DNA of 39,220 bases, taken from IMG/VR virus record IMGVR_UViG_3300049736_000498, positions 1 to 39,220 of that record; one strand, 5' to 3'. Both the position numbers and the translations under genes were made by a program. This stretch comes from a virus. This document shows positions 22,453 through 35,558 of this stretch, piece after piece (position 1 is the first letter of the stretch; every line of letters starts with the position of its first letter). The notes beneath the pieces are model-generated. The model was not told the DNA's origin, ran no database searches, and was given only the letters and a program-made list of their open reading frames with translations.

Positions 22453-25400
22453 ATGCCAAATTGGAAAAAAGTAATAATCAGTGGTTCTAACGCTGAATTA
22501 GCTCAAATTAAACTAACAGACCTTTCAAATCAGGGTTCTGAAAATACAACACTTGTAATTAATAGTAGTGGTGAAGTGGGCACAAGAGAAAACGCAGCCT
22601 CCTCAGGTACAAGCGGCTCTTCTGGATCTTCGGGATCATCAGGAACATCTGGTAACTCAGGTTCTTCAGGTACTAGTGGTAACTCTGGTTCAAGTGGTTC
22701 CTCAGGTACAAGTGGTTCATCAGGATCATCTGGAAACTCGGGTTCTTCAGGTTCAAGTGGAACGTCTGGTAATTCGGGTTCATCAGGAACAAGTGGTAAC
22801 TCAGGATCATCAGGTACAAGTGGTAATTCAGGTTCAAGCGGTTCCTCAGGTACAAGTGGCTCATCAGGTTCATCTGGTAACTCAGGTTCTTCAGGAACAA
22901 GTGGTAACTCAGGTTCTTCAGGTTCAAGTGGAACGTCTGGTAATTCTGGATCATCAGGAACAAGTGGTAATTCGGGATCATCGGGAACAAGTGGTAATTC
23001 AGGTTCTTCAGGTTCTTCAGGAACAAGTGGCTCATCAGGTTCTTCTGGAACCTCTGGTAACTCTGGTTCATCAGGATCTTCAGGTACTTCAGGTAATTCA
23101 GGATCAAGTGGGTCTTCAGGAACAAGCGGTAACTCAGGTTCATCAGGTACTTCAGGAAATAGTGGTTCAAGTGGTTCTTCTGGTACAAGTGGCAACTCAG
23201 GCTCTTCTGGTACAAGTGGCAACTCAGGTTCTTCCGGTACATCAGGTTCATCCGGAACAAGTGGTAATTCCGGTTCATCAGGAACTTCAGGTAGTTCTGG
23301 CTCCTCGGGATCTTCAGGGACAAGTGGAAGTAGTGGCTCATCAGGTTCTAGTGGCTCATCGGGTTCATCAGGGCAAGATGGTAATTTTGGTGGTGCTACA
23401 TTTGATTATACTTTTAGTACTTCTACTACAATTGGAAACCCAAATACTGGTAAAGTAAGATTAAATAATGCAACTCAAACCTCTGCAACTATATCCGCAA
23501 TTAGTGAAACGGATGATGATGGGAATTCTGTTCAATCATTTTTTGAAACTATAGATTCATCAACTTCAGCTATAAAAGGTTTTATGAGATTATCAGATAA
23601 AGATGATCCTTCAGATTTTATACTATTTGCCCTTGATGAATTAACAGATCAAGGAGCTTGGTGGCAATTTACAATAATATTTGAATCACAGGGGGGCAAT
23701 GCTTTAACAAATGGTGAAGATATTATAGCATCCTTTGTAACAACAGGTGATAGAGGTGATGATGGCACATCTGGTAGCTCTGGAAGTTCTGGTAGCTCTG
23801 GAAGTTCTGGCTCTAGTGGTACAAGTGGATCATCAGGTTCATCAGGTAACTCAGGTTCATCAGGTACTTCAGGAACAAGTGGTAATTCTGGTTCAAGTGG
23901 AACATCTGGTAATTCTGGTTCATCTGGGAGTAGTGGAACCTCTGGTAACTCTGGTTCATCAGGATCTTCAGGTACTTCAGGTAATTCAGGATCAAGTGGG
24001 TCTTCAGGAACAAGCGGTAACTCTGGTTCTTCAGGAACAAGCGGTAACTCTGGTTCTTCAGGTTCCTCAGGAACAAGTGGTAATTCTGGTTCATCTGGAA
24101 CTTCAGGTAATTCAGGCAGTAGTGGAACAAGTGGAAACTCAGGCTCAAGTGGTACGTCAGGTTCATCCGGTAACTCCGGTTCTTCTGGTACAAGCGGTAA
24201 TAGTGGCTCCTCAGGAACAAGTGGTAATTCAGGTTCTTCTGGTACATCTGGTTCTAGTGGTAATTCAGGTTCTTCAGGAACAAGCGGTAATAGTGGCTCC
24301 TCAGGAACAAGTGGTAACTCTGGATCTTCTGGTACATCTGGTTCTAGTGGTAACTCCGGCTCTTCTGGTACAAGTGGTAATAGTGGCTCCTCAGGAACAA
24401 GTGGTAACTCTGGATCTTCTGGTACATCTGGTTCTTCTGGTTCTAGTGGTACAACAACTATAACTAATGCATCTAATAATAGAGTAGTAACTTCTACAGG
24501 AGGTGTAGGATTAAATGCTGAATCTTGTATGTTATTCAATGGAAATTCTCTAACAGTAGGAGGATTACATTCTAATTCAGGTGCTTGTAGTACTATAGCA
24601 GGTGGTTTAAAAAACAAAATAAATTGTAACTTATCATCAATTGGAGGGGGTACTCTTAATACATCATCAGCAGTATGTACTTTTATAGGAGGTGGTTCTT
24701 GTAATGATATCGCAAGTTCTTATAGTTATGGTAGTAGTATAGTAGCGGGAATTGGGAATTGTATATATGGTACTAGTCCAGGCAGTATCATAGGAGGTGG
24801 ATTTCAAAATGATTCTTATGGAAGATATGATGTTATAGGTGGAGGTGTACGAAACTGTTTAAATGGATATGGATGTGATTTTATAGGTGGAGGATGTTGT
24901 AATAAAATTACAGGATATGGAAGGAATGTTATAGTAGGTGGTGGAAAAAATTGTAATAATGGATATGATTCTAGCGCTATTGTTGGAGGTTTTTGTAACT
25001 GTATAAAAGATAATTATACAAATCAATCATTTATAGGTGGAGGGTTTTGTAACCATATGGATTCTAAATATGGTAATACTAATTTAATAGTAGGTGGTGC
25101 AAAAAATTGTATAAAAAACATTGATTCTGGTGATGTTATCGGCTGCACCACAATTGTAGGAGGAAATTTAAATGCTGCATGTTCTTGTTGTGTTGGACAA
25201 TGTAAAACACAACCAAGTTGTGGTTTTATAGGTGGTGGGTCATGTAATTTAATAACAAATCCTTTTGATTTTATTGTAGCAGGGGAATGTAATAAAATAT
25301 GTTATAATAAAGCGAGAAATATTGGTGTAGGTTATGGTGAAGGTTGTAGTTTTATAGTAGGTAATAAAAATAAAATTGACACTGGTTATGGAACCAATAT

Positions 25401-26370
25401 GCTTATAGGACATAATAACTGTGTTACTTCTACAGGAGGTTATGGTGGAAGTGGTAGAATTATTGGAGGTTTTAATTCTTGTATTTTGGGTGAATATGGA
25501 TCTGGTGCAACTATTTTAGGTGGGTCTTGTCATTCCATAAATCAAGGATATGGATCTGGTGGAGATATAATTGGTGGTCAAAATCATACAATAAACGCTT
25601 ATAGTAATAAGGTATTAATAGTAGGGGGTAGAAATCACCAAATAGGTAGTGGTAATTCTTATACTAGTATTATAGGAGGAAATAATAACAGTATAAGCTC
25701 AAACAAATACCGATCAGCTATAATGGGAGGATGTAACAATACTAATAACCATTCTTGTGCTATTATGTTAGGTTTAGCCGGTAGAACATCCTGTACAGAT
25801 AGTACTACTCATGTTAATTGTCTTAACATTCAAAATACTTGTGGAGGAACTACAGGTGCTAAACAAGTTTCAATATTACCTGGAATAACATCCAATGGTA
25901 GTGTTGTAACAGATATGTGTGAAATGTGTGTGGCTTATAATGCTACACAAATCCAAGGTGTTTTAGGGAATGGGCCAAATTGTGTTATAATAGCGGCTCC
26001 GGGAGCAAATAAAACATTAGTAATATATGAAGCTATATTCCAAATACAAACATCTGGAACAAATACAACACAAGGTTTTAATGGTGCATTTCAAGTAGTT
26101 TCACCTTCATATAACTGTAATAATACAAGTATAAGAAATACAACTGCAGCCTTAGTACCAGCAAATGTATTACAAGCGGCTGTTAGAAATGGTCAAACAT
26201 ATACAACGTACCAAAGAGATGCTCCTACAGATGGTAGAGTGTATTCTACAAATCAATGTGTACGTTTTGGATGGAGTAATTCTAACCCTTATCCAAATGG
26301 TTTTCCATCTGTATTTATTTGCTTAAGGACAAGATTAAGATATAAAATTTACTGCGACACAGCATTCTAA
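22453..26370 (+). CDS. Giant collagen-like fibre protein with Cys-rich beta-repeat domain
   Basis: 1305 residues. Order: a 50-residue N-terminal domain shared with the protein at 20914; collagen-like arm 1 (about 50-305, GSSGTSGNS units); an inserted globular beta domain (about 306-436, with FDYTFSTSTTIGNPNTGKV and GAWWQFTIIFESQGG); collagen-like arm 2 (about 437-665); a linker TITNASNNRVVTSTGG; a domain of about 22 short repeats built on (I)IGGGxxN (about 709-1105) that suggests a YadA-like beta-roll or beta-helix; and a C-terminal domain of about 200 residues. By eye about 33 cysteines lie in and next to the repeat domain, often as GGGxCN. It is probably a long tail fibre or receptor-binding fibre. 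The accessory sugar/sulfate operon follows downstream. Confidence 0.82.
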   Translation: MPNWKKVIISGSNAELAQIKLTDLSNQGSENTTLVINSSGEVGTRENAASSGTSGSSGSSGSSGTSGNSGSSGTSGNSGSSGSSGTSGSSGSSGNSGSSGSSGTSGNSGSSGTSGNSGSSGTSGNSGSSGSSGTSGSSGSSGNSGSSGTSGNSGSSGSSGTSGNSGSSGTSGNSGSSGTSGNSGSSGSSGTSGSSGSSGTSGNSGSSGSSGTSGNSGSSGSSGTSGNSGSSGTSGNSGSSGSSGTSGNSGSSGTSGNSGSSGTSGSSGTSGNSGSSGTSGSSGSSGSSGTSGSSGSSGSSGSSGSSGQDGNFGGATFDYTFSTSTTIGNPNTGKVRLNNATQTSATISAISETDDDGNSVQSFFETIDSSTSAIKGFMRLSDKDDPSDFILFALDELTDQGAWWQFTIIFESQGGNALTNGEDIIASFVTTGDRGDDGTSGSSGSSGSSGSSGSSGTSGSSGSSGNSGSSGTSGTSGNSGSSGTSGNSGSSGSSGTSGNSGSSGSSGTSGNSGSSGSSGTSGNSGSSGTSGNSGSSGSSGTSGNSGSSGTSGNSGSSGTSGNSGSSGTSGSSGNSGSSGTSGNSGSSGTSGNSGSSGTSGSSGNSGSSGTSGNSGSSGTSGNSGSSGTSGSSGNSGSSGTSGNSGSSGTSGNSGSSGTSGSSGSSGTTTITNASNNRVVTSTGGVGLNAESCMLFNGNSLTVGGLHSNSGACSTIAGGLKNKINCNLSSIGGGTLNTSSAVCTFIGGGSCNDIASSYSYGSSIVAGIGNCIYGTSPGSIIGGGFQNDSYGRYDVIGGGVRNCLNGYGCDFIGGGCCNKITGYGRNVIVGGGKNCNNGYDSSAIVGGFCNCIKDNYTNQSFIGGGFCNHMDSKYGNTNLIVGGAKNCIKNIDSGDVIGCTTIVGGNLNAACSCCVGQCKTQPSCGFIGGGSCNLITNPFDFIVAGECNKICYNKARNIGVGYGEGCSFIVGNKNKIDTGYGTNMLIGHNNCVTSTGGYGGSGRIIGGFNSCILGEYGSGATILGGSCHSINQGYGSGGDIIGGQNHTINAYSNKVLIVGGRNHQIGSGNSYTSIIGGNNNSISSNKYRSAIMGGCNNTNNHSCAIMLGLAGRTSCTDSTTHVNCLNIQNTCGGTTGAKQVSILPGITSNGSVVTDMCEMCVAYNATQIQGVLGNGPNCVIIAAPGANKTLVIYEAIFQIQTSGTNTTQGFNGAFQVVSPSYNCNNTSIRNTTAALVPANVLQAAVRNGQTYTTYQRDAPTDGRVYSTNQCVRFGWSNSNPYPNGFPSVFICLRTRLRYKIYCDTAF
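22600..23370 (+). repeat. Collagen-like coding repeat, giant fibre arm 1
   Basis: In-frame GTSGNSGSSG-type units. Contains 23046-23135, an exact 90-base copy of 23934-24023 in arm 2. Confidence 0.9.
23761..24450 (+). repeat. Collagen-like coding repeat, giant fibre arm 2
   Basis: The same unit type as arm 1. Contains 23934-24023 (exact copy of arm 1 sequence) and the three-unit tandem repeat at 24169-24438. Confidence 0.9.
24169..24438 (+). repeat. Three tandem 90-base units in arm 2
   Basis: Units begin at 24169, 24259 and 24349, each 90 bases (30 codons), starting GGTAAYTC and ending GGTTCTAGT or GGTTCTTCT. The encoded 30-residue unit is identical in all three; the DNA copies differ at scattered synonymous positions. 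Confidence 0.85.
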
Positions 26371-26381
26371 TAAAAAAAATA

Positions 26382-26396
26382 ATATTTATAATAAAA
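26382..26396 (+). promoter_or_regulatory. Late-promoter-like motif (before 26406)
   Basis: ATATTTATAATAAAA, exact consensus, nine bases before the ATG at 26406. Confidence 0.55.
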
Positions 26397-26405
26397 TAAT
26401 AACAA

Positions 26406-26717
26406 ATGGAACATAATTGGAAAATATATGATTTAAAAAGAGTAATAGCTAATGGTATGGTTACCCAAGCAACTTATGCTTGTGAATCAAAAGAAGATAC
26501 TGCATCAACCAGATACATAGAAGATATAGAATTAGTAACAGGTTCAATATCAGACCCAGATTTTGTTACTTTTAATAATTTAACCCAAGATGAGGTTTTA
26601 GGATGGATTACAGGGAGTATTGATACAGCATCAATTGAAACAGAAAACTCAGCTTCTATTGCTAGAGCCTTAGTACAAAAATCAAAAATAACAAAAAGAA
26701 ATGGTACTCCTTGGTAA
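26406..26717 (+). CDS. Small conserved phage protein after the fibre gene
   Basis: 103 residues, starting MEHNWKIYDLKRVIANGMV. The pattern NWKIYDLKR...VTQATYACE, then VLGWITGSID, ETENSASIARALV and the C-terminal GTPW is one I associate with a widespread uncharacterised phage family (possibly DUF7936). No enzyme motif. Directly downstream of the giant fibre and with its own late motif, so it may be virion- or fibre-associated. The function is not known. Confidence 0.6.
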   Translation: MEHNWKIYDLKRVIANGMVTQATYACESKEDTASTRYIEDIELVTGSISDPDFVTFNNLTQDEVLGWITGSIDTASIETENSASIARALVQKSKITKRNGTPW

Positions 26718-26722
26718 AATAA

Positions 26723-26752
26723 TTAGGAGTATTTAATTAAGTTTTGTATATT
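26723..26752 (+). promoter_or_regulatory. Bipartite promoter-like element, copy 3
   Basis: TTAGGAG at 26723-26729, eight bases, TAAGTTTTGTATATT ending at 26752; the same spacing as copies 1 and 2. The next start is at 26776. It appears to drive the glycosyltransferase/sulfotransferase operon. Confidence 0.55.
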
Positions 26753-26775
26753 GTTTTATCATAAAAAAGTTATAA

Positions 26776-27654
26776 ATGAATATTATATTTCAAATAGACG
26801 GTGGTCTAGGCAAAAGCATCATGGGAACGGCCATGGTAAAAGTTATAAGAAAACGCTATAAAAACTCAAAAATTATAGTAGTAACAGGTTATCCTGATAT
26901 ATTTTTAAACAACCCTGATATTAATGAAGTTTACCACCCTAATAATATAAATGGTTTTTACTTAAAATATATTAAAGACCAAAATTGTAAAATATTTGTT
27001 GAAGATCCTTATAGACGTAATGATTTTATTTTAGAAAAACCAATAAATCTTCTTAAAACTTGGTGTGAATTATATGGTTTACATTATAATAATGAACAAC
27101 CCCAAATATATCTTACCCAACCAGAACTAGATTATTTTTCTCCTTATTATCAAACGGATAAACCAATATTAGCTATTCAACCAAATGGAGGACCAGTTGG
27201 ATTAGGTTATCAATATGCATGGACAAGAGATATCCCTGAAACAAATATGTTAGAAATAATAGAACATTATAAGGATAATTATTCTATTATTCATATAAAA
27301 AGAGAGGATCAAAAAATATACTCTAATACAATGCAGGCATTAGATGGGTTTAGAAGTATAGCTATATTACTTCAATTGTCTTCTAAAAGATTATTAATAG
27401 ATAGTTTTGGCCAACATATGGCAGCAGCTTTAAATAAAAAATCTACAGTTTGTTGGAGTATTACTAAACCAGAAGTTTTTGGTTATAAATTACATGATAA
27501 TATTAAATCAAACCCCTTTACTAAAGAACCTAATTTTCAACATACTCAATATAACCCTTTTGGGTTATCTGAAGATATTAGTACAATACCTTATAATGAT
27601 TTAAATGAAGTATTTGATACTAATAAAATTATAGAATCCATAAATAACCAATAA
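26776..27654 (+). CDS. GT9-like (heptosyltransferase-type) glycosyltransferase
   Basis: 292 residues. The N-terminal GT-B fold signature is IFQIDGGLGKSIMGTAMVK (residues about 4-22), the variant of the GT9 'xxGDxxxxTP' glycine loop seen in phage and marine bacterial homologues. The C-terminal half has AIQPNGGPVGLGYQYAWTR, then IIHIKREDQ and the donor-side helix LLIDSFGQHMAAALNKKSTV. The donor and acceptor are unknown. It is the first gene of the accessory operon behind the bipartite promoter-like element. A second GT9-type domain occurs in the operon's last gene. Confidence 0.7.
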   Translation: MNIIFQIDGGLGKSIMGTAMVKVIRKRYKNSKIIVVTGYPDIFLNNPDINEVYHPNNINGFYLKYIKDQNCKIFVEDPYRRNDFILEKPINLLKTWCELYGLHYNNEQPQIYLTQPELDYFSPYYQTDKPILAIQPNGGPVGLGYQYAWTRDIPETNMLEIIEHYKDNYSIIHIKREDQKIYSNTMQALDGFRSIAILLQLSSKRLLIDSFGQHMAAALNKKSTVCWSITKPEVFGYKLHDNIKSNPFTKEPNFQHTQYNPFGLSEDISTIPYNDLNEVFDTNKIIESINNQ

Positions 27655-27658
27655 TTAT

Positions 27659-28354
27659 ATGGTATTTTTAGATGAAAAAATAATATTTCTTTTACCTCCC
27701 AAATGTGGTACTTCTTCTTTTGTTTCTTTAATAAATAGTATTCCTAAATTTAATTCTAATAATGCTCTAGACTCAAATAAAGGTAGACATATCCGTTTAT
27801 CACATACAGTTAGACGCCATAGTATTAAAAATTTACAAGATTATAAAATTTATCAAATATGTCGTCATCCCTTAGATAGATTGATTTCAAGTTTTTATTA
27901 TTTAAAACCCCCAATTTCTAAAGATACAAAAAACCCATTCAGTATTATTACTCATTATGATAAAAAATATGAATTTAATGAATTTTTAGAACTAATTTTA
28001 CCTTTTATGATTAGTATTAAACATAAACCCCCAAAAAGCTTTTGGTATTTGTGGAATAGAGCAATTAAGAAAGATTTTAAAAGAATAAATAATTTTTTTT
28101 ACCAACCCCAAATTTACTGGAATGATTTAAATACTAATGTAGAATATATTAAACTAGAAGATATTGTACAAGATTCATCCTTGTTATTTTCTATTTTAGG
28201 GGAAAATACACTAAAAACATTTCCTTTTGAAAATAAAAATAAAGGGAATAATAATAAACCTAAAACTCCAACTCTAGAAATGTTTACAAAACAAAATTTA
28301 GAATTAGCATATGAGGCATACGAACAAGATTTTAAAATTCTTGGGTATAAATAA
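27659..28354 (+). CDS. Sulfotransferase 1 (PAPS-dependent)
   Basis: 231 residues. The 5'-phosphosulfate-binding loop PPKCGTSSF is at 13-21 and the 3'-phosphate-binding motif CRHPLDRLISSFY at 68-80 (R69, S77/S78), the two hallmarks of PAPS-dependent sulfotransferases. The remainder is Lys/Asn-rich, with LEDI (EYIKLEDIV) in the usual position for the family. The cytosolic enzyme would transfer sulfate from PAPS to a hydroxyl on a sugar or protein; the acceptor is unknown. Another sulfotransferase and an APS-kinase-like protein follow directly, so donor supply and use are encoded together. Confidence 0.8.
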   Translation: MVFLDEKIIFLLPPKCGTSSFVSLINSIPKFNSNNALDSNKGRHIRLSHTVRRHSIKNLQDYKIYQICRHPLDRLISSFYYLKPPISKDTKNPFSIITHYDKKYEFNEFLELILPFMISIKHKPPKSFWYLWNRAIKKDFKRINNFFYQPQIYWNDLNTNVEYIKLEDIVQDSSLLFSILGENTLKTFPFENKNKGNNNKPKTPTLEMFTKQNLELAYEAYEQDFKILGYK

Positions 28355-28369
28355 TAAATTAACTAAATA

Positions 28370-29188
28370 ATGGAACAAATATTTTTTCAATCATCATTAC
28401 CAAGAGCGGGTAGTACCTTACTACAAAATATTATGGGTCAAAATCCGGAATTTTATGTCACACCTACATCAGGTGCATTAGAACTTTTACATGCCGCTAG
28501 AACTAATTATACAAATGATCCTTCTTTTCTAGCCCAGGATTCAGAGATAATGAAAAAGGCATGGCTTAGTTTTTGCAGTCATGGTTTAGAAGGTTATTTT
28601 AAAGGAATTACAGATAAAAAATATATTTTAGATAAATCTAGAGGGTGGGGAATAAGTTATAATTTTTTAAATTCTTTTTACCCAAATCCTAAAATAGTTT
28701 GTATGGTTAGAGATCCAAGATCTATTTATGCTTCTATGGAAAAAAATTTTCGAAAACATCCTGATAAACATAGCAATATAGTTGATTGGTCGAAACTAAA
28801 AAATACAACAACAGCTAAAAGAGTTGATTTTTGGGCGGATTCACCCCCAGTTGGAACTTCAATGGAAAAATTAGAACAAATTATAACAGAAGGAATAAAT
28901 AAAGATATGTTATTTATTCGTTTTGAAGATTTAACTTTATTTCCCCACAGAGAATTAGATAAAATATATGATTTTTTTGGAATAAGTAGATTTAAACACG
29001 ATTTTCAAAATGTTGAACAAATAACTCAGGAAGATGATAAAATACATGGTATATTTGGTGATCATAAAATTCGAAAAGAGGTTAAACCTGTACCTGAAAC
29101 ATACATTAAATATTTAGGTTTAGAATTATCTCAAAATATAGCTAATACTTACCCATGGTTTTATCAACACTTTAATTATAAACTATAA
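28370..29188 (+). CDS. Sulfotransferase 2 (PAPS-dependent)
   Basis: 272 residues. The 5'-PSB loop SSLPRAGSTLL spans 8-18 and the 3'-PB motif MVRDPRSIYASM spans 112-123 (R114, S118/S122). FIRFEDLTLFP is the family's later conserved 'RYEDL' element, followed by IYDFFGI. It is not closely similar to sulfotransferase 1 outside the motifs, so the two are unlikely to be a recent duplication. The acceptor is unknown. It ends three bases before the APS-kinase-like gene. Confidence 0.82.
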   Translation: MEQIFFQSSLPRAGSTLLQNIMGQNPEFYVTPTSGALELLHAARTNYTNDPSFLAQDSEIMKKAWLSFCSHGLEGYFKGITDKKYILDKSRGWGISYNFLNSFYPNPKIVCMVRDPRSIYASMEKNFRKHPDKHSNIVDWSKLKNTTTAKRVDFWADSPPVGTSMEKLEQIITEGINKDMLFIRFEDLTLFPHRELDKIYDFFGISRFKHDFQNVEQITQEDDKIHGIFGDHKIRKEVKPVPETYIKYLGLELSQNIANTYPWFYQHFNYKL

Positions 29189-29191
29189 AAT

Positions 29192-29704
29192 ATGATATAT
29201 TGGTTTACAGGTCAACCTTGTTCAGGGAAGACCGTTTTAGCAAACATGCTTAAAGAAAAATATCTCCCCCATGCTTATCGCATAGATGGGGATGAAATGA
29301 GAGAATTATTTACAAATAAAGATTATTCTATAAAAGGTAGAATAACTAATGTAGATGCGGCTCAAAAAATTGCACATTATTTACATAATCAAGGTAAGGA
29401 TGTAATTGTATCTTTAGTTTCTCCTTACTTAGATCAAAGAGAAGAATTTAAGGATATAATGGAGTGGCAATTACAAGAAATTTTTGTACATTATGATATA
29501 GATAAAGGGTTTAGAGGCAGAGAAAATTATCATGTTATGCAATTCCAAAAACCAGATTTAGATTATATTGATATTGATACTACAAAACAAACCCCAGAAG
29601 AATCTTTAAAGATAATAGCTAAAAAGGCTGGTTTAGATGTAATATATCCTAAAGGATCACTATTAAATGAATTACCACCTTCAGATTACCAACTAGATAG
29701 TTAA
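29192..29704 (+). CDS. cysC: Adenylylsulfate (APS) kinase-like protein
   Basis: 170 residues. Walker A GQPCSGKT (7-14), the APS-kinase motif IDGDEMRELF (31-40, canonical DGDNxR), and RITNVDAAQKIAHYLHNQGKDVIVSLVSPY (shown in parts: RITNVDAAQKIAH and DVIVSLVSPY). This enzyme would make PAPS from APS and ATP, the donor for the two sulfotransferases just upstream. It is shorter than usual CysC (about 200): the lid segment around 'FVxxPLxxCExRDxKGLY' is replaced by IFVHYDIDKGFRGREN. So substrate range could differ. No ATP sulfurylase gene (cysD/cysN) is present, so APS would come from the host unless the gene at 30041 supplies it. Confidence 0.8.
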   Translation: MIYWFTGQPCSGKTVLANMLKEKYLPHAYRIDGDEMRELFTNKDYSIKGRITNVDAAQKIAHYLHNQGKDVIVSLVSPYLDQREEFKDIMEWQLQEIFVHYDIDKGFRGRENYHVMQFQKPDLDYIDIDTTKQTPEESLKIIAKKAGLDVIYPKGSLLNELPPSDYQLDS

Positions 29705-29705
29705 T

Positions 29706-30044
29706 ATGGAGAAAAAAAATACATACTTTTGTGATATAGATGGTACTATATTTAAATATCGTAAATTTGAAACGTATGAGACAACAAAAGCTGAGGGGAT
29801 AAAATCTACTATAGAATATTTAGATAAGGCAGCAAGTGAAGGACACATGATAATTCTAACAACAGCCCGTCCAGAATATCTTAGGATGCATACCGAAGTA
29901 GAATTACATGAAAATTATGTTCCTTATGATAGGTTAATTATGGGTATAGAAAGAGGTCCTCGTTATTTAATTAATGATATGGATCCAAATAAACCTGGAG
30001 AACGGGCTATTGCAATAAATTTAGAAAGAGATAGAGGATTATGA
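29706..30044 (+). CDS. Small HAD-superfamily phosphatase
   Basis: 112 residues. HAD motif I FCDIDGTIFKYR (D10, D12), motif II in ILTTARPEYLR (Thr after the strand), and a late acidic motif in YLINDMDP. The small size means no large cap domain, as in HAD proteins that dephosphorylate sugar or polynucleotide phosphates. The 3' end overlaps the nucleotidyltransferase start by four bases (ATGA), so the two are coupled. HAD plus nucleotidyltransferase pairs are common in sugar-activation pathways; the substrate here is unknown. Confidence 0.72.
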   Translation: MEKKNTYFCDIDGTIFKYRKFETYETTKAEGIKSTIEYLDKAASEGHMIILTTARPEYLRMHTEVELHENYVPYDRLIMGIERGPRYLINDMDPNKPGERAIAINLERDRGL

Positions 30045-30397
30045 GTAAACAATATTCAATGTTTATCGGTAGATGGCAACCTTGGCACCAAGGGCATCGA
30101 TGGTTAATAGACCAGCGTTTAAATGAAGGTAAAAACGTATTAATTTGTATTAGAGATGTGGAACCAAATGAAAAACAACCTTGGACTGCACAAGAAGTTT
30201 TAGTAAATGTATCAAAAGAATTAGATGGTTTAATACAAGAAGGTAGAATAAAAATAATTATTATACCTGATGTTGAGTCAATAAATTATGGAAGAGGTGT
30301 GGGATATGATGTTATTGAACACATACCCCCTGAAGATATAAAAGAAATATCTGCTACTAAAATTAGAGCTAAGATGAGAAAAGATGGTAAGTTATAA
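30041..30397 (+). CDS. Cytidylyltransferase-like nucleotidyltransferase
   Basis: 118 residues. N-terminal FIGRWQPWHQGHRWLI carries the HxGH nucleotide-binding signature (H16-H19), and the C-terminal EISATKIRAKM carries the ISxTxIR signature of the HIGH nucleotidyltransferase superfamily (glycerol-3-phosphate cytidylyltransferase, NMNAT, ATP sulfurylase). The protein is a minimal single domain. Possible products include a CDP-activated alcohol or sugar phosphate. Because ATP sulfurylase belongs to the same superfamily and the gene sits next to an APS kinase, APS formation is conceivable but speculative. Confidence 0.72.
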   Translation: MSKQYSMFIGRWQPWHQGHRWLIDQRLNEGKNVLICIRDVEPNEKQPWTAQEVLVNVSKELDGLIQEGRIKIIIIPDVESINYGRGVGYDVIEHIPPEDIKEISATKIRAKMRKDGKL

Positions 30398-30602
30398 AAG
30401 ACACATTGCAAAAACAATTTCATGGAGAATAATAGGAACAATAGACACAGTAATTATTTCAGGGCTTATAACGGGTTCTTGGGTAGCAGGGTTAGCTATA
30501 GGAGGGGTAGAAGTTATCTCCAAAATGGTGCTTTACTTTCTACACGAAAGGGCTTGGTATAAATTTATTAAATTTGGGGTAAATGATAAAACAAAAACCT
30601 AA
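30384..30602 (+). CDS. DUF2061-family membrane protein
   Basis: 72 residues. KRHIAKTISWRIIGTIDTVI followed by ITGSWVAGLAIGGVEVISKM and FLHERAWYKF is the DUF2061 pattern: two membrane segments with a conserved 'HERxW' end. DUF2061 proteins are frequently encoded next to sulfate-activation genes (cysC, cysD, cysN) in marine bacteria, from general knowledge, but their function is not established. The start overlaps the nucleotidyltransferase by 14 bases and the end overlaps the next gene by 20 bases. Confidence 0.78.
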   Translation: MVSYKRHIAKTISWRIIGTIDTVIISGLITGSWVAGLAIGGVEVISKMVLYFLHERAWYKFIKFGVNDKTKT

Positions 30603-32868
30603 AATATTTGCACACGGTAGTTATATAGGAACTACTGGGTATGCAAATCATACAAAATCATTTTTTAGGGAACTTTCTAATATATATGATTTAAAAGTTA
30701 AAAATTTTACAGTAGGTAAATCTTGGGATGGGTATAAAGATGAGCCACATAATAATGAAAGTTATATTGATAATTTAGATAAAAAATTATTATGTTCCCA
30801 ATACTTATGGGAAGGAGATAATTTATCTTCTAAAGATATTTATACTAAGTATTCTAATAATTTTAAACATGATATTAACTTAGTATTATGTGAAACTTAC
30901 CATCACGTATTTTACCAAGATTATCAAGGACCTAAAATAGCATATAATGTATGGGAAACAACCCGTCAACCCAAAGAGTTTTTTAACCAATTAAATAAAT
31001 TTGATCAAATTTGGGTTGCATCAAATTGGCAAAGAGATTGTACTATAGAACAAGGAACAGATCCTGATAAAGTAAAAGTTGTCCCGGAAGCAGTAGATTC
31101 TACTATTTTTTTCCCTAATGAAAAAGCCACTCTTCCCGAATATGATGATGGGAGGTTTAAATTTACAATGTTTGGCAGATGGGATTACAGAAAATCAACT
31201 AAAGAAATTATAGAATCATTTTTAGAGGAATTTAAAGAAGATGAACCTGTAGATTTAATTTTATCTATAGATAATCATATGGCTAAAGATAGTTTTAAAA
31301 CAACAGAAGAAAGATTAAAGCATTATAATTTAGTTGACCCAAGACTAAAAATAAAACATTTTCCTAGTAGGGAGGAATATATAAAGTATCTCCAAAAAGG
31401 TCATGTATTTTTATCTTGTGCTCGTTCTGAAGGGTGGAATTTACCCTTAATTGAAGCTATGGCTTGTGGAACACCGTCAATATACTCTAATTGTAGTGGG
31501 CAATTAGAATTTGCAAAAGGTAAAGGATTACCCGTAAAAATAAAAGGTACTATACCTGCAATAGGAGGAGAATATAGTATATATTCCCAATCAGATCTCC
31601 CAGGAGAATTTTATCAACCGGATTATAGTGATTTAAAAAAAGTAATGAGAGATGCTTATGTTAATTATAAGAAACATAAAAAACAAGCATTAAAAGAATC
31701 TATTAAAATAAGAAAAAAATTTACTTGGGCTAATATAGCAGAAATTGCAGAAAAAGAAATTGACCATTTAGTAAGTAATCTTCCCCCTAATAAAATTGAA
31801 ATAAGTTTTATTGATGGTCCTAAAGTAGAAGTAATAGGTTCTAATTTTAAAAATTACAAGGTAGAATTTATAGATAGTAGAACAGATAAATTAATACATT
31901 CTTCTACTATTAGTAATAATATGTGGACTAAATGTAATAAATCATATTATATTCCTTGGACAATTAAAGTTAATGGTAAAATAGTACATAAATTAGATCT
32001 TGAAAATAAAGATGTTGTAATATCTATAGATTCTAAATCTATAGGAGATACATTAGCATGGACTCCTCAAATATTAGAATTTGCAAAAAGGCATAAATGT
32101 AAAATATCAGTAAGTACTTTTTTTAACAAATGGTTTCAGGGATTAAAAGAATATAAAGATATAACTTTTATAAAACCAGGTGATAAATTTAATGCTTATG
32201 CTTATTATAAAATAGGATGGTTTAAAAATAAAGAAGGAAATTGGCAGAATTTTGATAATCATCCAACTCAAGTAAATACAATTCCTTTAATTCAAGCGGC
32301 AACAGATATATTAGATTTACCTTATATAGTTAAAACATCACCAATAAATTTTACTCCTTTAAAAAGACCTATTAAGGACAAATACATATGTATTGGGCCT
32401 CAATCTACTGCTGGTTTAAAAGAATGGCCCCACCAAAACTGGAGAAAATTAGCTAAACTTTTACATTCTAAGGGATATAAAGTAGTAAGTTTATCTTTAA
32501 ATGGATTTAAAGGGACTAATATAATTAATAAATCAAACCTTCCTTGGGATGAATTATTTAATTACTTATACCACTCAGACTTATTTATAGGTTTAGGTTC
32601 TGGTTTATCTTGGATTAATTGGACTTTAAATAAACATACAGTAATGATAAATAATTTTGTTCCTTATGGTTACGATATACCTAATAATTTAACTAAAATA
32701 GAAAATTATAAAGTATGTAATGGTTGTTGGGTAAATAAAGATTATGTATTTGATGCTGGAGATTGGGATTGGTGTCCCGTATATAAAGGAACAGAAAAAC
32801 AACATATATGTCAAAAATCATTAACTGTTGAACAAGTATTTAGTAAAGTAGATAAACTTTTAAAATAA
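30583..32868 (+). CDS. Two-domain glycosyltransferase: GT4 plus TibC/Aah-like O-heptosyltransferase domain
   Basis: 761 residues. Domain 1 (about 1-400) is a GT4-type GT-B enzyme: HGSYIGTTGYANHTKSFF at the start, WVASNWQRDCTIEQG, FGRWDYRKSTKEIIESF, and the E-x7-E donor motif CARSEGWNLPLIEAMACGTP (E283, E291). Domain 2 (about 478-761) is GT9-type: ISIDSKSIGDTLAWTP, IGPQSTAGLKEWP, LFIGLGSGLSWINW. It ends with a four-cysteine cluster, C712xxC715-x15-C731-x11-C743, in CNGCWVNKDYVFDAGDWDWC and following residues. That resembles the metal-binding finger of bacterial autotransporter O-heptosyltransferases (TibC, Aah). A protein O-glycosylation role is inferred. Last gene of the accessory operon. Confidence 0.75.
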   Translation: MIKQKPKIFAHGSYIGTTGYANHTKSFFRELSNIYDLKVKNFTVGKSWDGYKDEPHNNESYIDNLDKKLLCSQYLWEGDNLSSKDIYTKYSNNFKHDINLVLCETYHHVFYQDYQGPKIAYNVWETTRQPKEFFNQLNKFDQIWVASNWQRDCTIEQGTDPDKVKVVPEAVDSTIFFPNEKATLPEYDDGRFKFTMFGRWDYRKSTKEIIESFLEEFKEDEPVDLILSIDNHMAKDSFKTTEERLKHYNLVDPRLKIKHFPSREEYIKYLQKGHVFLSCARSEGWNLPLIEAMACGTPSIYSNCSGQLEFAKGKGLPVKIKGTIPAIGGEYSIYSQSDLPGEFYQPDYSDLKKVMRDAYVNYKKHKKQALKESIKIRKKFTWANIAEIAEKEIDHLVSNLPPNKIEISFIDGPKVEVIGSNFKNYKVEFIDSRTDKLIHSSTISNNMWTKCNKSYYIPWTIKVNGKIVHKLDLENKDVVISIDSKSIGDTLAWTPQILEFAKRHKCKISVSTFFNKWFQGLKEYKDITFIKPGDKFNAYAYYKIGWFKNKEGNWQNFDNHPTQVNTIPLIQAATDILDLPYIVKTSPINFTPLKRPIKDKYICIGPQSTAGLKEWPHQNWRKLAKLLHSKGYKVVSLSLNGFKGTNIINKSNLPWDELFNYLYHSDLFIGLGSGLSWINWTLNKHTVMINNFVPYGYDIPNNLTKIENYKVCNGCWVNKDYVFDAGDWDWCPVYKGTEKQHICQKSLTVEQVFSKVDKLLK

Positions 32869-32882
32869 TCAAATAATTATTA

Positions 32883-32897
32883 ATATTTATAAACAAA
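32883..32897 (+). promoter_or_regulatory. Late-promoter-like motif (before 32904)
   Basis: ATATTTATAAACAAA, a close variant, six bases before the ATG at 32904. Confidence 0.5.
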
Positions 32898-32903
32898 ACA
32901 AAA

Positions 32904-33158
32904 ATGAGTAAAGCAATTAAGTTATCGGAAGAAGAATTAAAAACTCTTAGGGATTATCAAAAAACCCAAAACCAAATTACTTTTAATCTAGGTAATGTAG
33001 ATATTCAAAAAGCTATATTAGAAGGTCAAAGAAGTCAAATTTTAGACAATTTAGCTAGTTTACAAGAAAAGTCTAATAAAACAGCTAAAGAATTACAAGA
33101 TAAGTACGGTGAAGGAAATATTGATTTAGAAACTGGAGAATTTACTTTAACAGAATAG
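32904..33158 (+). CDS. Small coiled-coil protein before the sheath gene
   Basis: 84 residues, mostly one long charged helix (LSEEELKTLRDYQKTQNQ, then QRSQILDNLASLQEKSNK). The end YGEGNIDLETGEFTLTE is acidic. Short helical proteins with a 'GxGxIDxxTGEFT' end are common next to structural genes in marine T4-like phages, without a defined role. It has its own late motif and precedes the sheath gene. Confidence 0.6.
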   Translation: MSKAIKLSEEELKTLRDYQKTQNQITFNLGNVDIQKAILEGQRSQILDNLASLQEKSNKTAKELQDKYGEGNIDLETGEFTLTE

Positions 33159-33177
33159 TTTTTTGAAAAGGTTTTTA

Positions 33178-33192
33178 ATATTTATAATAAAA
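33178..33192 (+). promoter_or_regulatory. Late-promoter-like motif (before the sheath)
   Basis: ATATTTATAATAAAA, exact consensus, twenty-three bases before the ATG at 33216. Confidence 0.55.
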
Positions 33193-33215
33193 CAATATTA
33201 AAATAAGAAAATAAA

Positions 33216-35558
33216 ATGGCAGAAACGTTAATATCTCCCGGTGTAGCAGCAAGAGAAAATGATCAATCTTTTGTAACCTCACAACCAGTTGAAAGGGGTG
33301 CAGCAATTATAGGTCCAACTGTATTAGGTCCTGTTGAAAGACCCACATTGATTAGTTCATTTAGTTCATACCAAGCTTTATTTGGTGGAGCTTTACAAAG
33401 TGGTTCTAATGAATATACTTACCTTACTTCAATTGCAGCAAATCAATATTTTCAAAATGGTGGAAATTCATTATTAGTAACTAGAGTAACGTCAGGATCA
33501 TTTAGTTCTGCAACTTCTACTTTAATCCAAAATACTGTTCAAGAATTAACAGGGGGATTAATTGGTAATATAGTTGGAGATCTAACTACATCAGGTGACG
33601 CTCAATTATCTACTTTTAGTGAAACTGGTGTATTTAATAATGTTCCTTTACCTGGGGGTGAGAATGGAATTGAAGCATCAGCTTCTATAACTGTAAGTAG
33701 TGCAAATGGTTTACTTTGGGTTACATCAACATTTACTCCACAAGGGGATGCACCAACAACAACACAAGATGGTACTACTGGTGCTATCACATCTTTAACT
33801 GGAGCAGGTTCTAATACTAGTGGTACTGGAGCATCAATTACAGTAACAGTTGCAGGAGGGGTAGTAACTACCGCTACAGTAACAGCTGCAGGATCAGGGT
33901 ATAGTGTTGGAGATACATTAGTTGTACTCGCAGAAACACTTCAAAGTGATGGAAATATAGGTGATGTAACTGGAAATCTAACTATTATTATAGGTACTAC
34001 AAATTTAACAGGTCAAATTACATCTATAGTAGTAACAGAAGATGGTGAAGATTATATTGTAGGTGAAACTATTACTATAGATAATGCATTAATTGGATTA
34101 AGTGGTATAGATCCAATATTAACTTTAACAAATCCTTCTATAGAAAATGGAAATGCATTTGAATTAGAAACTATTTCTGAAGGGATTGTTATGAATAACA
34201 CTAACCCTGTAGGATCAGATACCGGAGGTACTGAGCTACCAGGAGGGGCACTAGTAAGTGGTTCATCTAAAAATGTTAGATGGGAAATTACAAGTGTAAA
34301 TACTGCATCTGGTGTATTTTCTTTAGCAGTTAGACGTGGTAATGATAATAACAATAATAAAGTAATATTAGAACAATATAATAATGTTTCATTAGATCCA
34401 TTTTCACCAAATTATATTGCACGAGCAATTGGTGATATTTCAACTAATTTAGTAACAGAAGGAGCAGATACATTCTTACAAGAATCTGGTTCATTTGCAC
34501 AAATTTCTAACTATGTTAGAGTAAAATCAGTTAATTCACCTACCCCAAATTATTTTAATAATGATGGTAGCGCAAAAACCGAATATACCGCATCCTTACC
34601 AATGATTGGGTCAGGTTCATTTGATGGAGCAGTTGGTGCAAATATTCCAAATGGTAGAGCTGCTAATTTTTACCAAAACATTAATAATATTGATGCACAA
34701 GGGTTAGTAGGATCTGATTATAATAATGCAATAGCGCTATTAGCTAGTCAAGATGATTACCAATATAATGTAATATCAGTACCTGGTTTAACTAATCAAG
34801 ATCACGCAGCCCAAATCACTAGTGTAATGAATAATTCAATTTCACGTGGTGATAATATTGCGGTAGTTGATTTAGTAAGATATAACTCACAAATAAATGC
34901 GGTAACAAACCAAGCAGGTGGAATTGATAATAGCTATACAGCTACATATTGGCCATGGTTGCAAACTGTTGATCCAAATTCAGGACAATTAGTTTACATC
35001 CCAGCTTCTACATTTATACCAGGTGTATATGCGTTTACAGATGCTTCAAGTGATCCATGGTTTGCACCAGCAGGTATTACTAGAGGAGGAATGGGACAAG
35101 TTGTTAGAGCTGAAAGAAAATTAACTTCTACTAACAGAGATACTTTATATGAAGCAAATGTTAATCCAATTGCTACATTCCCACAACAAGGAGTAGTAGT
35201 ATTTGGACAAAAAACATTACAAAAAGCAGCATCAGCATTAGATAGAGTAAATGTACGTAGATTATTAATTACTCTTAAAGATTTCATTTCTCAGATTGCT
35301 GATAATTTGGTATTTGAACAAAATACAATTGCAACAAGACAAAACTTTTTAACACAAGTAAATCCATATTTAGAAAGTGTTCAACAAAGACAAGGATTAT
35401 ATGCTTTTAAAGTAGTAATGGATGAAACAAATAACACACCAGATGTAATAGATAGAAATGAGTTAATTGGACAAATTTTCTTACAACCAACTAGAACAGC
35501 TGAATTTATTATGTTAGATTTCAATGTATTACCAACTGGAGCAACATTCCCAGCATAA
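33216..35558 (+). CDS. gp18: Contractile tail sheath protein (T4 gp18-like)
   Basis: 780 residues, longer than T4 gp18 (659). N-terminus ISPGVAARENDQSFVTSQPV and the nearby RGAAIIGPTVLGPVERPTLI are typical sheath starts. The C-terminal domain is well conserved: GVVVFGQKTLQKAASALDRV, NVRRLLITLKDFISQIADNL and PTRTAEFIMLDFNVLPTGA. Residues about 190-295 form a Gly/Thr-rich insertion with repeated GYSVGDTL / DYIVGETI turns, probably a surface domain. The sheath polymerises around the gp19 tube and contracts on infection. Confidence 0.94.
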   Translation: MAETLISPGVAARENDQSFVTSQPVERGAAIIGPTVLGPVERPTLISSFSSYQALFGGALQSGSNEYTYLTSIAANQYFQNGGNSLLVTRVTSGSFSSATSTLIQNTVQELTGGLIGNIVGDLTTSGDAQLSTFSETGVFNNVPLPGGENGIEASASITVSSANGLLWVTSTFTPQGDAPTTTQDGTTGAITSLTGAGSNTSGTGASITVTVAGGVVTTATVTAAGSGYSVGDTLVVLAETLQSDGNIGDVTGNLTIIIGTTNLTGQITSIVVTEDGEDYIVGETITIDNALIGLSGIDPILTLTNPSIENGNAFELETISEGIVMNNTNPVGSDTGGTELPGGALVSGSSKNVRWEITSVNTASGVFSLAVRRGNDNNNNKVILEQYNNVSLDPFSPNYIARAIGDISTNLVTEGADTFLQESGSFAQISNYVRVKSVNSPTPNYFNNDGSAKTEYTASLPMIGSGSFDGAVGANIPNGRAANFYQNINNIDAQGLVGSDYNNAIALLASQDDYQYNVISVPGLTNQDHAAQITSVMNNSISRGDNIAVVDLVRYNSQINAVTNQAGGIDNSYTATYWPWLQTVDPNSGQLVYIPASTFIPGVYAFTDASSDPWFAPAGITRGGMGQVVRAERKLTSTNRDTLYEANVNPIATFPQQGVVVFGQKTLQKAASALDRVNVRRLLITLKDFISQIADNLVFEQNTIATRQNFLTQVNPYLESVQQRQGLYAFKVVMDETNNTPDVIDRNELIGQIFLQPTRTAEFIMLDFNVLPTGATFPA

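Follow-up and report, generated by a model that had tools for sequence, protein, structure and literature searches.

Organization of the locus

The window analysed here is a viral record of 39,220 bases (IMGVR_UViG_3300049736_000498) from a marine phage, probably a fragment of a larger phage genome. Eight consecutive open reading frames, all located on the plus strand at 26776..32868, encode a putative glycosyltransferase, two sulfotransferases, a kinase of adenosine 5'-phosphosulfate (APS), a phosphatase, a small nucleotidyltransferase (NT), a membrane protein and a double glycosyltransferase. Judged by sequence, NT is a well-supported candidate for a third family of ATP sulfurylases, on which a portable sulfation cassette would be built. 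The intergenic gaps measure, in order, 4, 15, 3, 1, -4, -14 and -20 bases. Terminase, portal and T4-type major head protein genes are found upstream of the eight genes, and a tail sheath gene downstream, as in a contractile-tailed phage. The eight genes are placed between a long fibre made of SGSSGTSG repeats and the sheath gene. A sequence-only reading of the window had described eight adjoining genes, at most 15 bases apart or overlapping, and embedded in the virion module, and was correct in all these points.

The sulfotransferases belong to different families. ST2 (27659..28354, 231 amino acids (aa)) is a Sulfotransfer_2 protein (PF03567, 35.1 bits, cut-off 22; phrog_3347, galactose-3-O-sulfotransferase) marked by the motifs PPKCGTSS and RHPLDRLISSF. 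It is rare among relatives, and resides in the window and in loci L062 and L064. ST3 (28370..29188, 272 aa) is a Sulfotransfer_3 protein (PF13469, 63.2 bits, cut-off 27), the LPRxGSTL and VRDxRxIxASM motifs of which are conserved in 15 relatives. Both proteins exceed the profile cut-offs, and in both the 5'-PSB and 3'-PB motifs, which bind 3'-phosphoadenosine 5'-phosphosulfate (PAPS), are intact.

The APS kinase gene (APSK; 29192..29704, 170 aa) encodes a short-lid enzyme. The protein matches Pfam PF01583 (61.8 bits, cut-off 21.1), and reaches 59.6 bits with the NCBIfam equivalog TIGR00455, the cut-off of which is 138.7. When aligned with canonical CysC, APSK keeps the P-loop, the DGDxxR motif, the second phosphosulfate-binding arginine, the adenine-stacking aromatic residue and the SPY loop; the residues compared are those known from the Mycobacterium tuberculosis CysC-APS complex (PMC4373884). 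The lid, DPKGLYKKA...FTGI in CysC, is replaced by a short RGRE segment. Marinimicrobia and MGIII archaea likewise encode a short-lid kinase next to NT. The C-terminal tail of the window kinase, YPKGSLLNELPPSDYQLD (29640-29701), is near-identical in L048:10001-10528, and absent from most relatives.

APSK is followed by a phosphatase gene of the HAD type (29706..30044, 112 aa; PF08282 Hydrolase_3, 22.1 bits, cut-off 20.9), the product of which shows weak similarity to polynucleotide 3'-phosphatase (PNKP-phosphatase) domains. Next to it lie NT (30041..30397, 118 aa; CTP_transf_like, 25.2 bits, cut-off 21) and a gene for a DUF2061 membrane protein (30384..30602, 72 aa; PF09834, 78.2 bits, cut-off 23.1). 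DUF2061 is fused to the N-terminus of CysC in Chitinophagaceae (L159:7210-8001) and to the C-terminus of CysN on a Microvirga plasmid (L454:5761-7350), and is encoded just upstream of CysC in 5 of the 18 CysC operons examined. By these associations, it looks like a membrane domain, or companion, of sulfate activation.

The two outer genes are accessory. GT9a (26776..27654, 292 aa; phrog_8954), the putative glycosyltransferase, often stands before ST3 in relatives. It has no Pfam match of its own, and PF01075 is matched by 3 of 17 relatives (best E value 8.6e-4). No match was obtained by comparing its profile with the C-terminal GT9 part of GTfus, or by searching solved structures with it. GTfus (30583..32868, 761 aa) joins a GT4-type (PF00534, 42.6 bits, cut-off 26.4) to a GT9-type (PF01075, 34.0 bits, cut-off 22) glycosyltransferase, and its counterpart in Microcystis phage Mel-JY01 matches it at 44%. 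Longer GT4-GT9 fusions (L002:2953-6681 and similar) feature about 480 extra residues with a PIG-L deacetylase domain. The family labels given earlier stand, apart from those of the first gene, which is weakly GT9-like, and of HAD, for which the label is generic.

The NT family

An APS kinase requires APS as substrate. The earlier attribution of PAPS synthesis to the locus, which took into account the kinase only, is therefore incomplete as to the step that forms APS, a gap likely filled by NT. NT is a member of an unnamed family which, on profile searches, matches neither the known ATP sulfurylases nor any curated family; no description of it was found in the literature searched, outside which most subscription journals fall. 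Members have been identified in Marinimicrobia, marine Flavobacteriales, Nitrospirota, Dadabacteria, SAR11, MGIII archaea, haloarchaeal plasmids and hundreds of phage contigs. When 41 members from phages and cells are aligned, the motif GRxQPxHxGH, the GRGVGY loop and the motif ISATxIR are invariant or near-invariant. Most phage copies fall in one group of the NT tree, near Marinimicrobia, and a second phage group lies among the longer Flavobacteriales type (branch support is moderate). The two groups suggest that phages acquired NT more than once.

The possibility that NT is a remnant of Sat was rejected by profile score and motif spacing. NT matches the Sat profile PF01747 with 13.1 bits over 24 residues, under the cut-off of 24.3, and features the NadM-type GRxQPxHxGH and GRGVGY rather than the Sat motifs TRxPxHxxH and GRDHAG. 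Haloarchaeal NT has IGRDVGY and ISGTETR, which are merely reminiscent of Sat motifs.

An AlphaFold2 model of NT, obtained with a deeper alignment (mean pLDDT 89, pTM 0.77), has the nucleotidyltransferase fold of the HIGH superfamily; in a first model, made with a shallower alignment, the acceptor loop was weakly predicted. The ATP sulfurylase 8a8g is the match of rank 46 in PDB (root mean square deviation 2.3 over 73 columns), a similarity which is not diagnostic because it is expected within one superfamily. The best PDB matches are nicotinamide mononucleotide (NMN) and phosphopantetheine adenylyltransferases, and the closest profile models are those of NMN adenylyltransferases (NMNATs). NT might hence be an NMNAT, paired with a nucleoside kinase (the APSK-like protein) in NAD metabolism, somewhat like NadR. 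The scores, however, are far below the NMNAT cut-offs of NCBIfam (39.8 against 127 and 33.8 against 181.2 bits), and solved NMNATs align to the nucleotide-binding half of NT only, the acceptor half being different.

A divergent kinase-NT fusion (phrog_10255) found in Stenotrophomonas phages (L110:4590-5321, L111:4584-5324) has no sulfotransferase in its surroundings and is one gene away from that of a NADAR-domain protein, which it follows in phage Bhz60. This proximity is in line with a role in NAD metabolism, and the function of the fusion may differ from that of NT.

NT in cellular genomes

Cellular NT loci were scanned in one genome per species, and 80 loci were fetched. APS kinase adjoins NT in 39 of them. 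In four Nitrospirota loci, NT comes after the genes of sulfite reductase and CysH, and several Flavobacteriales operons feature the order CysC-NT-CysQ-sulfotransferase. On haloarchaeal plasmids, a CysC::NT fusion is found directly behind a sulfotransferase, an order which is that of phage ST3-APSK-NT. In Pelagibacteraceae (SAR11), all 12 loci have NT 50-80 bases ahead of a membrane-protein gene, after which come AprB and AprA. The tested CysH, AprA and CysQ neighbours, as well as a canonical APS kinase, score over the NCBIfam cut-offs. The membrane protein encoded between NT and AprB-AprA measures 263 aa in loci L163-L165, L175, L177, L183-L186 and L189-L191.

The distribution of NT is complementary to that of the known sulfurylases. 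Sat is absent from 38, and CysD from all, of 40 NT-bearing genomes (the searches covered Sat and CysD). APS kinase is encoded by 32 of them, and in 6 of the other 8 NT is found beside AprAB, so that NT occurs along with APS-using enzymes in genomes devoid of Sat and CysD. Both exceptions are Sat-APS kinase fusions of Nitrospirota (L432:934-2673 and L433:783-2522, minus strand), in which GRDHAG is replaced by GWDYAS or GQDYAS, and one of which also has TRHPLYRVH. Because the sulfurylase motifs are degenerate, the two Sat copies are probably inactive as sulfurylases. The same two genomes carry the sulfite reductase-CysH-NT array. A separate draw included 148 genomes of one order, 64 of which have CysC. 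CysD is present in 59/59 CysC genomes lacking NT and in 0/5 of those with NT (Fisher p = 1.3e-7, a value which ignores kinship); Sat was found in 0/148.

On a Microvirga plasmid (L454:3581-4363), an APS-kinase-like protein is fused to an NT-like domain, in which the GRGVGY loop reads GLDLGY. The fusion sits beside CysD, CysN and a sulfotransferase, and represents either an exception to the mutual exclusion of NT and CysDN, or a domain with another role.

NadD exceeds its cut-off in 31 of the 40 genomes, where NT is therefore not needed for NAD. Given also that the neighbours of NT are CysC, CysH, CysQ, AprAB and sulfotransferases, and given the low scores and the different acceptor half, NT is most unlikely to be an NMNAT. 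Operon contexts, complementarity with CysD and Sat, and the presence of NadD elsewhere in the genomes point to NT as the probable APS-forming enzyme, and ATP-sulfurylase activity is highly probable.

Alternatively, NT and APSK might make some other 3'-phosphorylated activated group, which the supposed sulfotransferases would transfer. Campylobacter enzymes Cj1416 and Cj1415, a small nucleotidyltransferase and an APS-kinase-like protein, make the activated group for the O-methyl phosphoramidate of the capsule by a similar logic, and the altered lid of APSK might be taken in the same sense. Yet NT replaces CysDN in genomes having a canonical CysC, and resides in operons with sulfite reductase-CysH or with AprAB, where APS itself is the substrate; moreover, APSK keeps the arginines that contact the phosphosulfate. 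A group other than sulfate consequently has a very low probability.

Most SAR11 bacteria have been reported to lack ATP sulfurylase, although AprAB is encoded (PMC10356861). The SAR11 homologue of NT is, by its gene context, a candidate for the enzyme said to be lacking. Taken as a whole, it is quite probable that NT represents a third ATP sulfurylase family, NadM-like, single-domain and about 110-180 residues long, and forms the centre of a portable cassette for PAPS supply and sulfotransfer; in SAR11 the reaction would proceed in the direction of ATP and sulfate, and so complete the AprAB route of sulfite oxidation.

Conservation of the cassette among phages

With the APS kinase as query, 346 relatives, 80 of them fetched, were identified in viral contigs; with ST3 as query, 28 loci were identified. 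The neighbourhoods share a core, APS kinase-(HAD)-NT-DUF2061, around which sulfotransferases, GT9a and the glycosyltransferase fusion vary. HAD is optional, and most loci have no such gene between APSK and NT. APS kinase and NT occur together in 178 viral loci, APS kinase alone in 5 and NT alone in 5 (contigs recurring across scans are kept in these counts). In an independent scan with NT as query, APS kinase was found nearby in 76 of 78 loci. Genes related to those of the window thus reside in hundreds of contigs in related order, so that a chance assembly is ruled out.

The kinase is carried by 18 of the 28 loci identified by ST3, nearly always just downstream of it. The sequence-only reading had seen in these genes a set for sulfation, and this view is supported by the association, and by the PAPS motifs kept by both sulfotransferases. 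Among 30 long core-bearing phage records, a sulfotransferase is found above Pfam cut-offs in 17, and in 20 if weaker matches are included. ST3 relatives were found in 10 of 50,697 deposited phage records. Sheath and head-protein scans, which provide a selection-free test of the link between sulfotransferase and core, met the cassette in 3 of 50 loci only (p = 0.06), too small a number for such a test.

According to another explanation, the core would boost sulfur assimilation of the host, from PAPS to sulfite and cysteine, as an auxiliary metabolic module, and the sulfotransferases would be mere neighbours. A sulfotransferase is indeed found within the flank of only 24 of 78 phage NT loci. On the other hand, the neighbour clusters examined around phage cores yielded no recognisable CysH or sulfite reductase, and ST3 and core are tightly associated, as on the haloarchaeal plasmids. 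A role in assimilation is, on balance, improbable.

In the clade of the window phage, a hot-spot extends between gene 19497 and the sheath gene. At this site, some 40 relatives lack all of the genes in question, and others carry just a glycosyltransferase, the core with a glycosyltransferase, or the core with a sulfotransferase. Given this variable content, the eight genes do not constitute a fixed unit. The notion that they form one system, advanced in the sequence-only reading together with the proviso that the set be conserved in related phages, was abandoned: close relatives hold subsets, and many hold none. The cassette appears mobile, sulfotransferases and glycosyltransferases being present or absent around the core at the hot-spot before the tail-sheath gene.

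In other marine phages (L031, L045, L050, L051, L073, L080), the core is surrounded by QueC and carbamoyltransferase genes. PAPS might thus be used to sulfate modified bases of phage DNA, and phages have been reported to modify nucleotides by sulfotransferase-based systems (PMC10829341). Besides QueC and carbamoyltransferase, DUF1599 or clamp-loader genes adjoin some cores. In the window and its relatives, however, the cassette resides in the tail module, where no base-modification gene was recognised, and sulfated bases are very improbable here. Cores set in replication or QueC/carbamoyltransferase neighbourhoods imply that PAPS may serve other uses in other phages.

In the literature searched, neither a phage PAPS-sulfotransferase cassette, nor an APS-forming enzyme or PAPS module linked to a phage sulfotransferase, was found described.

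Proposed pathway and acceptor

From the gene content, the motifs, the pairing of NT with APS kinase and the complementarity of NT with CysD and Sat, all of them observed, we infer the following enzymatic steps and their acceptor. NT would adenylylate sulfate with ATP, yielding APS, as a compact ATP sulfurylase distinct from Sat and CysDN. APSK would phosphorylate the 3'-OH of APS to give PAPS, from which ST2 and ST3 would move sulfate to the acceptor; a glycan made by GT9a and GTfus is the likeliest one. The by-product of the transfer is 3'-phosphoadenosine 5'-phosphate (PAP), the 3'-phosphate of which is removed in bacteria by CysQ. HAD may take this role, as its weak likeness to polynucleotide 3'-phosphatases suggests; this is the least supported step. 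DUF2061 would act as a membrane companion of the sulfate-activating enzymes. It is probable that the locus is, as in this whole scheme, a sulfation cassette by which the phage provides its own activated sulfate.

Several data weigh against the scheme. NT is nearest, in sequence and fold, to NMNATs, and some 25 of the 80 cellular NT loci have no adjoining sulfur gene in the flank searched. Profile searches detected no sulfotransferase in 10 of the 30 long core-bearing phage records, and some phage cores sit, as said, in replication or QueC/carbamoyltransferase settings. The case for HAD as PAP phosphatase is made by a weak similarity alone. Finally, the genomes counted are mostly partial metagenome-assembled or single-cell genomes, and the counts are uncorrected for relatedness.

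The sulfated glycan may belong to the virion or to the infected cell, at its surface. The former is slightly favoured by the position of the cassette in the tail module, between fibre and sheath, where late expression with the structural genes is probable. The same biochemistry might act on the host surface, for instance to block superinfecting phages, an explanation which overlaps with the preferred one and is a serious, if less probable, possibility. In its favour, cell-surface polysaccharides of bacteria are known targets of both enzyme classes, glycosyltransferases and sulfotransferases; the DUF2061 product is a membrane protein; and one group of phages has a WavE-like lipopolysaccharide gene next to the core.

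A tie between the cassette and the neighbouring fibre, which would have favoured a virion glycan, did not emerge. Among 52 distinct sheath loci, a sulfotransferase is found in 0/5 of those with an SGSSG-rich fibre and in 7/47 of the others, and the core is likewise not associated with such fibres, though five loci give little power. The Ser/Thr/Gly-rich fibre, which had been taken as the partner of the genes, is not supported as a specific one.

As to the host, the nearest named relatives of the head protein are found in the Flavobacterium phage immuto group (55%) and in Microcystis phage Mel-JY01 (46%). Most start codons at 22453-33216 have no Shine-Dalgarno sequence and lie in an A/T-rich context, a habit of Bacteroidota. 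Start-codon context and the Flavobacterium-phage-like head protein hint at a Bacteroidota host. In a scan of the locus for promoters and terminators, the signal was about equal to that of shuffled sequence.

Should NT prove to be an ATP sulfurylase, marine sulfate activation would be under-annotated, and genomes having CysC, CysH or AprAB, and no Sat or CysDN, would turn out to be complete. The point is clearest in SAR11, the most abundant bacteria of the ocean, in which AprAB is encoded and ATP sulfurylase is said to be missing in most. In phages, PAPS supply and sulfotransferase would travel together, and sulfated glycans on virions or infected cells would become a concrete hypothesis.

Comparison with known systems

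Bacterial PAPS operons, made by CysD-CysN or Sat, CysC, CysQ and sulfotransferases, resemble the cassette in the APS kinase, DUF2061, the sulfotransferases and the PAPS logic. In contrast to them, the cassette features NT in place of CysDN or Sat, a short-lid APS kinase and HAD rather than CysQ, and is phage-borne. The haloarchaeal plasmids share the gene order with phages, and their NT part is 45% identical to the window NT; they differ in that CysC and NT are fused, the CysC lid is canonical, and no glycosyltransferase, HAD or DUF2061 gene is annotated beside. NadM and archaeal NMNATs have in common with NT the HIGH fold and the GRxQPxHxGH and SxTxxR motifs. NT is 50-60 residues shorter, has a conserved PDIESxNYGRGVGY block in place of the acceptor half, and is below all NMNAT cut-offs. 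Single sulfotransferases of environmental phages, reported as auxiliary metabolic genes (PMC8290583, PMC10829341), share with the cassette the sulfotransferase. Virions of mycobacteriophages are known to be O-glycosylated (PMC11652166), and virion glycosylation would be the point of likeness to the phage of the window, in which a virion glycan is one of the two acceptors considered.

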